A DNA stretch of 44,852 bases from Polyangiaceae bacterium (GTDB taxonomy: Bacteria; Myxococcota_A; Polyangia; Nannocystales; Nannocystaceae), in contig JALSIN010000411.1 in assembly GCA_026989935.1 (NCBI GenBank), forward strand, positions 1 to 44,852, in the 5' to 3' direction. The translations under genes were made by a program, and so were the position numbers. The notes under the pieces were generated by a model. It worked only from the letters and a program-made list of their open reading frames with translations. It was not told the DNA's origin and did no database searches. Shown here piece after piece: positions 13,894 through 29,678 of the stretch (the first letter of the stretch is position 1; every line of letters starts with the position of its first letter).

Positions 13894-15822
13894 GTGCGGA
13901 TCTCATTGCGCGTCTTGACCCAGGGGCGGGCTGGGGCAGAAGATGGGCGGGCCCTGAAGGTCCATTTCATCGGCATCGGCGGCACCGGGATGGGGGCCCT
14001 CGCGGGGCTCCTTTCGGAGGCCGGCCACGAGATCCGGGGCTCGGATGGCCCCCTGTATCCGCCCATGAGCACCCAGCTCGCGGCGGCCGGGATCGACGTG
14101 TTTTCGGGGTACGCCCCGGAGAACCTCGACTGGGGGCCCGATCGCGTCGTCGTGGGAAACATCTGCAGCGCCGACCATCCCGAGGTCGCGGCGGCCCGCG
14201 CCCGGGGGATCCCCCTCGAGAGCTTCCCGTCCATGCTCGCCTCGGCCTTCCTCGGCGAGCGACGGGCGCTGGTCGTGGCGGGTACCCATGGCAAGACCAC
14301 GACCGCCAGCGCCCTGGCCTGGTGCCTGCGGGTGGCCGGGTTGGACCCGTCGTTCCTCATCGGCGGCGTGCCGCTCAATATGGGGCGCGGGTACCACCTC
14401 GGAGGCGGGCCGGCGTTCGTACTCGAAGGGGACGAGTACGACACCGCCTTCTTCGACAAGGGGTCCAAGTTTCTGCACTACCGGCCTCGGCGCGCCATCT
14501 TGACCTCGGTGGAGTTCGACCACGCCGACATCTTTCGCGACATGGACGCGGTCCGCCGCGCGTTTGGGGACTTCGTGGCGCTGCTGCCCGAGGACGGTGA
14601 CCTGGTCGTGTGTGGAGACGATCCCGAAGCGACCGAGTGCGCCGCCGGCTGCCGCGGGCGTGTTCACACCTATGGGATCGTCGCACGCGAGGAGGACGCC
14701 GGCGCGCGTGCCTACGCGGCCGTGATTCGCAGCCCGCAAGGGGCCCGCCGCACGGTGTTCGATGTGTACGTGCGCGGGGAATCCTTCGGGCGTTTCTCTA
14801 CCCACCTGGTTGGCGCCCACAACGTTTCGAACCTCCTGGCGGTGATCGCTTTGTGTCACCTGGAAGGGGCGCCGGCCGAGGCCATCGCTCGGGGCATCCA
14901 GACCTTCCGCGGGGTGCGGCGTCGCCAAGAACTGCTCGGGGTCGCGCAGGGGGTGCGGGTCATCGACGACTTCGCCCATCACCCGACCGCCGTATCGGTC
15001 ACCGTGGCCGCCTTGCGGCGCCGGTATCCCGACCACGCGCTGCACGTGTGCTTCGAGCCACGCTCCGCCTCCTCGCGCCGAAAGATCTTCGAGTCGGCCT
15101 ACGCCGAGGCCTTCGACGCCGCCAGCAGCGTGCGGATCGGGCCGCTGTTTCGGCCGGAGAAGGTGCCCGCCGATGAACGTCTCGATCCGGCCGCGCTGGC
15201 GGCCGCAGTGCGGGCGCGCGGGATCCCGGCGCGGGCCTTCGACGACATCGATGGCCTTCTTGCCGACGTGCACGAGACGGTGGCCCCGGGTGACACCGTG
15301 CTGGTCCTTTCGAGCGGACGTTTCGGGGACATTGGCCGCCGGTTGCTCGATCGCCTCGGCGATCCGGTGGTGTTTGCCCGCCGCGAAGAGGCCCCGGCCA
15401 TCGATGCCCTCCTCGAAGGCTATGGGCTGCCCCCGGTCGTGCGCGAGCCCACCGTCGATACGCTCGTCATTCGCAACGGTGCGGACGTGGTGGGATGTGT
15501 GAGCCTCGACGTGCGGGGCACGAGCGCGTTTTTGTTCGGCCTGGCGGTCACGCCCGAGCGACGCGGGGAAGGGTTGGGGTGGGTACTGGGCGACTGCATC
15601 ATGCGCCATGCCCGAACCCTCGGGATCCGGCGCTTGTACCTGGTCACCGCGACCGCCTCCAATTACTTCGCCACGAAGCTCGGGTTTTGCGAGCTGCCCG
15701 AGGCGAAGGTGGATTCCGATGTGGCCGCTTCGCCCAACTTTCGGGCCTCCGCGGCGCTCGAAGGGGCCGTTTGCATGGCCTTCGAACTGCCGGACGACGA
15801 GCGGGCAGTGGTGCGCCCGTGA
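13894..15822 (+). CDS. mpl: Mpl (UDP-MurNAc:L-alanyl-gamma-D-glutamyl-mDAP ligase) fused to a GNAT acetyltransferase
   Basis: A 642-residue two-part protein. Residues about 20-489 are Mpl, which reattaches the recycled murein tripeptide to UDP-N-acetylmuramate in the cytoplasm: HFIGIGGTGMG at 24-34, ATP-binding GTHGKTTT at 130-137, the Mpl-specific GDEYDTAFFDKGSKFLHYRP (179-198) followed by EFDHADIF, then GAHNVSN and DDFAHHP. These separate it from MurC. Residues about 490-642 form a GNAT domain (FGLAVTPERRGEGLG, acetyl-CoA loop RRGEGLG at 556-562, LYLVTATASNYFATKLGF) resembling the ArsN2-like group. Mpl normally ends at about 460 residues, so the fusion is unusual. The start is uncertain: GTG 13894 is first after an in-frame stop; TTG codons at 13906 and 13915 are alternatives. 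Confidence 0.88.
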   Translation: MRISLRVLTQGRAGAEDGRALKVHFIGIGGTGMGALAGLLSEAGHEIRGSDGPLYPPMSTQLAAAGIDVFSGYAPENLDWGPDRVVVGNICSADHPEVAAARARGIPLESFPSMLASAFLGERRALVVAGTHGKTTTASALAWCLRVAGLDPSFLIGGVPLNMGRGYHLGGGPAFVLEGDEYDTAFFDKGSKFLHYRPRRAILTSVEFDHADIFRDMDAVRRAFGDFVALLPEDGDLVVCGDDPEATECAAGCRGRVHTYGIVAREEDAGARAYAAVIRSPQGARRTVFDVYVRGESFGRFSTHLVGAHNVSNLLAVIALCHLEGAPAEAIARGIQTFRGVRRRQELLGVAQGVRVIDDFAHHPTAVSVTVAALRRRYPDHALHVCFEPRSASSRRKIFESAYAEAFDAASSVRIGPLFRPEKVPADERLDPAALAAAVRARGIPARAFDDIDGLLADVHETVAPGDTVLVLSSGRFGDIGRRLLDRLGDPVVFARREEAPAIDALLEGYGLPPVVREPTVDTLVIRNGADVVGCVSLDVRGTSAFLFGLAVTPERRGEGLGWVLGDCIMRHARTLGIRRLYLVTATASNYFATKLGFCELPEAKVDSDVAASPNFRASAALEGAVCMAFELPDDERAVVRP

Positions 15823-28553: not shown

Positions 28554-29678
28554 TCACCCGGCCAGGGACGAGGGGCGGCGATCCGTGGCGCGGCGGACCG
28601 GGCGCAGGGCGGCGAGGACCTCCCCCGCCTCCCCCGGACGGCCGAGCGCCAGACGCTCCAGGGCCGCGGGATCCACCACGAGCACGTCCGGGTCGTCCGG
28701 GTCCACCGTCACGTGGGTGAAGACGGCGCGAAACCGCGGGACCACGTCGGCCGTCACGGCGACGATGGCCGGCAGCGCGGAGGGGCCCGGTTGACCCGGG
28801 CGCGTGGCGTAGCGGCGGGTGGCCCGCACGAGCGTGACCTGGTCCGTGGGGGCCTCCACGTGCGGCCCGCCGTCGAAGGGATCGACCCGCCCGGCGTAGG
28901 CAAAGCCCACCGACTCGAGCAGGCGCAGGGCGCCTACGGTGTTCGGGCCCACGGTTCCGATGGCGGCCTGCACCTCCTCGGGCAGCAGGCTGGCGTGGAT
29001 CGGCATCCGCGGGAAGAGGTTCCAGATGAAGGTCTTGTCGAACCGGCTGAGCCGGTCGGCTTCGTCGTAGGACAGCCCCGTGAACCGGTGGCCGAGGGCG
29101 TCCCAAAGGGGACTCTTCGTGGCGCCCTCCGGGCCGCGAAACAGCGGCGGCAACAGCTCCGCCAGCAGCCGGTCGCGAAACCACGGGCGGTGGGCGGCGA
29201 TGAACACGAAGCGCGACAGCGACAGCAGCCGGCCGAGCTTTTGCGGGTGGCGGCGAAGGCCCGGGTCGAGGACCAGGCCGCCGAGCTCGGTGGGGCCATG
29301 GTAGGTCAGCCCCAGATGGAGCATCGTGTGCTCCATGTGGATGTGCTGCACGCGCCCGTCGGGGAAGTGCAGCTTGGCGTGGCGCTCCTCCGTGCTGACC
29401 GTGAAGTAGACGTGGGGATCGTCGTACGTGCCGTGCTGGGCGTGGATCATCGAGGTGCCGACGACCCGGCCGTCGGGAGCTTCCAGGGCGAACAACAGGC
29501 GGCGATCCGGATCGAAGGGGCCCGGTGCGAACGAAGCGACCGAACGGGTCAGAAGGCCCTCGATGTAGTCGGGCTCCGGCGGCAGGTTCAAGGTGTTGAG
29601 GTGCCGCGCGAGTCCGAAGATCGCGGCCTCGTCCGCCGCCTGGGCCTCGCGCAGCAGGAAGTAGGGTTCGGCGGCCAC
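28554..29678 (-). CDS. Arginine N-succinyltransferase (AstA)-family acyltransferase
   Basis: A 374-residue GNAT-fold enzyme of the AstA family, which transfers succinyl from succinyl-CoA to arginine or ornithine as the first step of the arginine succinyltransferase pathway. Recognised blocks are LREAQAADEAAIFGLA at 9-24, LLFALEAPDGRVVGTSMI, HGPTELGGLVLDPGLRRHPQ, GRLLSLSRFVFIAAHRPWF, LPPLFRGPEGATKSPLWDAL with GHRFTGLSYDEADRLS, and FPRMPIHASLLPEEVQAAIG. No other ast genes (astB, C, D, E) are in the window, so its role in catabolism is unproven and another acceptor is possible. The start is GTG 29678; CATAAT lies 8 bases upstream and no Shine-Dalgarno sequence is present. It follows ssb by 68 bases. 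Confidence 0.85.
   Translation of the reverse strand: MAAEPYFLLREAQAADEAAIFGLARHLNTLNLPPEPDYIEGLLTRSVASFAPGPFDPDRRLLFALEAPDGRVVGTSMIHAQHGTYDDPHVYFTVSTEERHAKLHFPDGRVQHIHMEHTMLHLGLTYHGPTELGGLVLDPGLRRHPQKLGRLLSLSRFVFIAAHRPWFRDRLLAELLPPLFRGPEGATKSPLWDALGHRFTGLSYDEADRLSRFDKTFIWNLFPRMPIHASLLPEEVQAAIGTVGPNTVGALRLLESVGFAYAGRVDPFDGGPHVEAPTDQVTLVRATRRYATRPGQPGPSALPAIVAVTADVVPRFRAVFTHVTVDPDDPDVLVVDPAALERLALGRPGEAGEVLAALRPVRRATDRRPSSLAG

Follow-up and report, generated by a model that had tools for sequence, protein, structure and literature searches.

In the window, the whole stretch of 44,852 nucleotides of Polyangiaceae DNA analysed here, a single open reading frame joins the ligase Mpl to a C-terminal GNAT acetyltransferase domain. 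Mpl returns murein peptides to UDP-MurNAc in one step and is central in cell-wall recycling. We conclude that Mpl-GNAT is a genuine domain architecture, new for this known enzyme and well conserved, and that the two-domain fusion is almost certainly real and ancient. Throughout a whole bacterial lineage, Mpl has become attached to an acetyltransferase, and the active-site motifs of both parts have been retained. Should the GNAT use murein peptides as substrates, acetylation would introduce a new means of control or quality checking into cell-wall recycling; otherwise, an arsenic/glutamate-type acetyltransferase would be passed around as a fusion module.

Mpl and GNAT domains share one open reading frame

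The preliminary description had placed Mpl and a GNAT in one reading frame, and Pfam searches of the 642-aa protein agreed: three Mur-ligase domains and Acetyltransf_1 (PF00583; residues 519-598, 36.6 bits) were detected, all four scoring above their cut-offs. The features of the gene are as follows.

13894..15822, forward strand: Mpl-GNAT fusion gene; 642 aa from GTG at 13894, stop TGA, open over 642 codons
13957..14247, forward strand: Mur ligase N-terminal domain (UDP-MurNAc side), residues 22-118; PF01225 Mur_ligase, 74.8 bits
14275..14853, forward strand: Mur ligase middle domain (ATP side), residues 128-320; PF08245 Mur_ligase_M, 76.1 bits
14281..14301, forward strand: P-loop GTHGKTT, residues 130-136; invariant across the fused set
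14920..15318, forward strand: Mur ligase C-terminal domain (peptide side), residues 343-475; PF02875 Mur_ligase_C, 59.8 bits
14965..14985, forward strand: Mpl motif DDFAHHP, residues 358-364; kept in fused and unfused Mpl, in an Mpl-specific region according to PMC3060825
15052..15072, forward strand: Mpl motif FEPRSAS, residues 387-393; EPRSNT in P. arcticus Mpl
15310..15318, forward strand: SSG, residues 473-475; replaces the SNG of most Mpl and is characteristic of the fused clade together with its GNAT-less relatives
15367..15789, forward strand: GNAT acetyltransferase domain, residues about 492-632, by a profile built from fused proteins
15559..15579, forward strand: acetyl-CoA loop RRGEGLG, residues 556-562; R557 and G560 invariant in 40 fused proteins
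15637..15687, forward strand: YLVTATASNYFATKLGF, residues 582-598; bears the one-residue insertion that marks Mpl-fused GNATs

The complete Mpl spans residues 22-488 and the GNAT follows almost without a linker, across a junction (G489, D490) conserved at 95-97%. The acetyl-CoA loop, described earlier as intact, proved to be so: it matches the GNAT-superfamily pattern R/Q-x-x-G-x-G/A and is kept across about 12 families. Since homologues start near residues 20-22 of the reading frame, translation may in fact begin further downstream than 13894, nearer 13915-13957. The N-terminal extension of about 20 residues ahead of the Mpl core (13894-13956) was also observed in a same-genus genome.

AlphaFold2 (36 fused proteins) gave a pLDDT of 91.7 and a pTM of 0.91 for the whole protein, and a pLDDT of 94.4 and a pTM of 0.87 for the GNAT alone. 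A pTM this high for a two-domain protein suggests that the domains keep a fixed position relative to each other, in line with the linkerless junction. Such a rigid-looking fusion with a conserved junction could also speak for a regulatory GNAT, which would sense acetyl-CoA and acetylate a lysine of Mpl or of a partner, tying recycling to the carbon state; GNATs fused to sensory domains regulate enzymes in other systems. We nevertheless regard this as very improbable, for the closest relatives of the domain are small-molecule acetyltransferases, and a column comparison left K22, at the N-terminus, as the sole lysine separating fused from unfused Mpl.

The fusion is widespread in Polyangia

The same-genus genome (G001) bears the identical architecture at 76% identity, and in the window's family the fusion was found in 27 of 28 genomes, the exception (G013) being 54% complete and lacking a full match. 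A class-wide sweep of 318 Polyangia genomes returned 87 matches running through both domains and three partial ones that included the GNAT. These roughly 90 carriers span 12 families, and some of their genomes are single contigs; in one further family (f15), the fusion is present with an insertion. The preliminary description had raised the possibility of two genes merged by a sequencing error that hid an in-frame stop. We reject this, because G001 is fused at 76% identity and the approximately 90 independent assemblies carry the fusion as well. A GNAT fusion had been called unusual for Mpl, and so it is, yet it is a lineage-wide architecture and not one genome's peculiarity. A contig scan, sampled by short patterns, placed the fusion only in Nannocystis and Enhygromyxa among the best 80 matches listed; in a sweep of Acidobacteriota (297 genomes), none of the matches resembled an Mpl fusion in frame length or score. 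This distribution makes a Nannocystaceae-like member of Myxococcota the most likely source of the window. We found no description of an Mpl-GNAT fusion in the open-licence literature searched. At one locus (L130:1-2628, reverse strand), the Mpl-GNAT frame continues into an inositol monophosphatase, giving 876 aa; the GNAT end is garbled there, so this is probably an assembly frameshift and not a triple fusion.

The ligase part matches Mpl best

The NCBIfam Mpl model TIGR01081 scored 359.9 bits on the window protein, against 310.5 bits for MurC, and was 29 bits under its curated cut-off of 388.7 bits; it matched all 36 of 36 fused members (best E 2e-125). In the PDB, the ligase part matched two Mpl structures best, 3hn7 and 3eag, with every MurC ranking below them, and a separate MurC is present in the same genome (G000:C59; TIGR01082, 536 bits). 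Mpl-specific peptide-side residues have been listed for the P. arcticus enzyme (PMC3060825); of these, R343 and R344, F360, A361, H362 and H363, E388, P389, R390 and S391, and A185-K189 are present. Nearly all peptide-site residues of P. arcticus Mpl are retained, the clear differences being N406 to A and N484 to S. We considered the latter as a hallmark of the fusion and rejected it: GNAT-less relatives share the substitution, which thus marks the lineage. An S66/LdcA-type peptidase match and a weak AmpG-type permease match were also found in the same genome. By profile ranking, structure match and motif, the ligase is best read as Mpl and not MurC.

The GNAT is a diverged relative of ArsN2 and N-acetylglutamate synthases

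An ArsN2-like layout had been claimed for the GNAT, and the claim holds, with a refinement. ArsN2 (NF040501) was the nearest curated family, matching all 36 of 36 fused members (best E 1.7e-36), and the YLLT-TASDFF...GF arrangement is the same; however, the window GNAT (residues 500-628) scored 66.6 bits, or 70.3 bits by genome search, under the curated cut-off of 125 bits, the (L)CPxSA C-terminal motif of most ArsN2-type relatives was seen in 0 of 39 fused GNATs, and the best fold matches were N-acetylglutamate synthases (NAGS). The latter were the top PDB matches of the GNAT both by sequence and by Foldseek (fold probability 1.00), with protein acetyltransferases further down the fold list. 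The GNAT thus descends from the ArsN2/NAGS type, as a diverged relative of ArsN2.

These top matches invite the reading that the GNAT itself makes N-acetylglutamate for the arginine pathway and is carried by Mpl in the way that ArgH carries the NAGS domain of ArgH(A) fusions. ArgH(A) of Moritella and relatives has been shown to function as NAGS (PMC1382215) and provides a precedent, and in four fused genomes the Mpl-GNAT locus was the sole match to the short-NAGS model. We consider this reading quite unlikely all the same. The window protein lies far below every NAGS cut-off (NF005921, 30.6 of 180 bits; TIGR01890, 22.4 of 202.85 bits) and no genome match passed; its genome has ArgJ, which is able to supply N-acetylglutamate; and two GNAT-less relatives (G045 and G042) are also without a NAGS-type match, so the function is not required.

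The dN/dS ratios of most of eight pairs (NG86) were alike in both domains, as in the window protein versus G001 (Mpl 0.15, GNAT 0.14), and the GNAT is mostly under purifying selection. It evolves faster than the ligase, and one pair of family f12 gave a GNAT dN/dS of about 0.76. In family f18 (L132 and L167), the neighbour of f7/f19 on the Mpl tree, the TASDFF region is eroded and the loop ends in S instead of G; the GNAT of this family is apparently decaying. Taken together, the faster evolution, the single high ratio and the f18 erosion indicate that the GNAT may be decaying in places. Such erosion, together with at least two apparent losses of the domain (see below), would suit a GNAT that is a non-catalytic structural remnant, but the conservation of the acetyl-CoA loop with its two invariant residues and the purifying selection similar to that on Mpl in most pairs make this improbable. 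We predict with good confidence that the GNAT is catalytically active.

Probably one fusion and repeated loss of the GNAT

The fused state requires three changes on the Mpl tree. A branch with 97% support has on one side 22 unfused rows (the outgroups with f8, f11, f14, f24, f27, f28 and f32), and the remaining unfused families, f7, f19, f10 and f13, sit among the fused ones, with which they have SSG in common. The simplest reading of this tree would be one gain and two losses. The Mpl tree by itself is also compatible with three gains; the GNAT data point to one, since the fused GNATs form a single clade (SH-aLRT 98 with 52 rows, 92 with 74 rows) and share the one-residue insertion in FFAxKxGF, present in 39 of 39 fused GNATs versus 3 of 35 others. 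Three stand-alone GNATs of Acidobacteriota (L206, L210 and L211) have this insertion and may be among the nearest free-standing relatives. As the GNAT appears to have been lost later in at least two lineages, Mpl works without it. We also considered whether GNAT-less relatives keep the GNAT as a separate neighbouring gene and rejected this: 20 loci of unfused Polyangia Mpl had no GNAT of such type nearby, and ten loss-lineage genomes had no good GNAT match anywhere (best 37.8 bits).

Genome neighbourhood and sister fusions

In the window, the neighbours of Mpl-GNAT encode CinA, a lipoprotein-like protein, a divergent PilZ protein, a diacylglycerol-kinase-like protein, NeuB and a DUF4388 protein. 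The genes that recur from family to family include an MnmG-like gene, the divergent PilZ gene and, downstream, an inositol monophosphatase gene, some of them (the MnmG-like gene among these) named by eye. None of the conserved neighbours across fused families was recognised as a gene of recycling, arsenic or arginine functions, and no ars operon surrounds Mpl-GNAT in the window. The recurring neighbours are inheritance in place, without a functional hint, and the genome context neither supports nor excludes the earlier suggestions of a modified recycled peptide or of regulated recycling. Elsewhere in the window (28554-29678, reverse strand), we observed an arginine N-succinyltransferase (AstA) family protein (PF04958, 261 bits).

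A phylum sweep showed that other Myxococcota relatives of the GNAT are stand-alone ArsN2-type proteins or are fused to ArsC or Rid. ArsN2-type GNATs lie C-terminal on ArsC-type arsenate reductases in several Polyangia families (L180:4941-5954, L184:4563-5417, L183:4410-5432 and L188:3864-5426); the ArsN2 cut-off was applied to three of these ArsC-linked GNATs, of which two exceeded it and one fell just short. In three further Polyangia genomes, an ArsN2-like GNAT follows a Rid-family (Ribonuc_L-PSP) domain in frame (L187:4989-5993, L189:4992-6143 and L192:4995-6854).

The GNAT module therefore attaches to various partners, and ArsC and RidA may carry sister GNATs in Polyangia in the way that Mpl carries this one. 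Together with the lack of a recognised functional neighbour, this would fit a detoxifying or amino-acid acetyltransferase whose substrate has nothing to do with murein, Mpl being only a stable, constitutively expressed carrier. ArsC, however, is itself an arsenic gene, so the fusion partners there are not random, and the Mpl-fused GNATs form a clade of their own with their own insertion and a lost Cys-Pro motif, which suggests adaptation to a new setting. On balance, we find a mere carrier role fairly unlikely.

A proposed acetylation step in the murein-peptide pool

The explanation that we favour, tentatively, pairs Mpl with N-acetylation of a glutamyl-type amine. The protein would be bifunctional: by homology and motifs, its N-terminal 470 residues would be a working Mpl joining recycled L-Ala-gamma-D-Glu-mDAP to UDP-MurNAc, and its C-terminal 140 residues would be an acetyl-CoA-dependent GNAT. 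The trees and the shared insertion suggest that one ArsN2/NAGS-type acetyltransferase joined Mpl in the ancestor of part of the Polyangia, and the absence of a linker, together with the confident model of the whole protein, suggests that it is held beside the peptide-side ligase domain. There it may N-acetylate a small glutamyl-type molecule of the murein-peptide pool at its free alpha-amine; a surplus or non-cognate peptide or a look-alike amino-acid analogue would be candidates. Because this alpha-amine is the nucleophile that Mpl needs, acetylation would block ligation. Next to the main reaction of Mpl, the GNAT would have a secondary role in sorting or detoxification, dispensable for recycling and hence repeatedly lost.

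ArsN1, of the functional group of ArsN2, inactivates a glutamate analogue by acetylating its alpha-amine, and ArsN2 has been described as nearer to glutamate N-acetyltransferases (PMC6465285). Since relatives acetylate glutamate or its analogues at the alpha-amine and the GNAT adjoins the domain that binds the D-glutamyl peptide, a glutamyl-type molecule of the murein pool would be the likeliest single answer. By this analogy, a substrate in the murein-peptide or glutamyl pool is possible, at clearly less than even confidence, with the carrier, NAGS, regulatory and remnant readings sharing most of the remaining probability; counting against the favoured explanation, no substrate of ArsN2 itself is established in the literature that we found. 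A narrower version, in which surplus or non-cognate peptides are capped at the alpha-amine by an editing or diverting acetyltransferase on Mpl and so barred from re-entering cell-wall synthesis, seems unlikely. We know of no description of peptidoglycan recycling that includes such a proofreading-like capping step.

Comparison with known systems

With known Mpl (3hn7, 3eag; PMC3060825), the window protein shares the three Mur-ligase domains, the P-loop, DDFAHHP, EPRS, AFFDK and the peptide-site motifs; it differs in the extra C-terminal GNAT and in SSG for SNG at one putative peptide site. The GNAT has the fold type and the YLLT-TASDFF...GF layout of ArsN2, whereas it lacks the Cys-Pro motif, bears the one-residue insertion, lies outside an ars operon and has Mpl as its partner. 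Its identity to short N-acetylglutamate synthases is approximately 20-23%, and in the alignment it has a shorter loop behind the first helix, where gonococcal NAGS contains 'RSREYL'; this, too, speaks against a NAGS function. ArgH(A) is likewise a metabolic enzyme with a C-terminal NAGS-type GNAT, but the host enzyme and the pathway are other than those of Mpl-GNAT. The ArsC- and RidA-ArsN2-like fusions, also of Polyangia, use the same GNAT type as a C-terminal fusion module, with partners other than Mpl.
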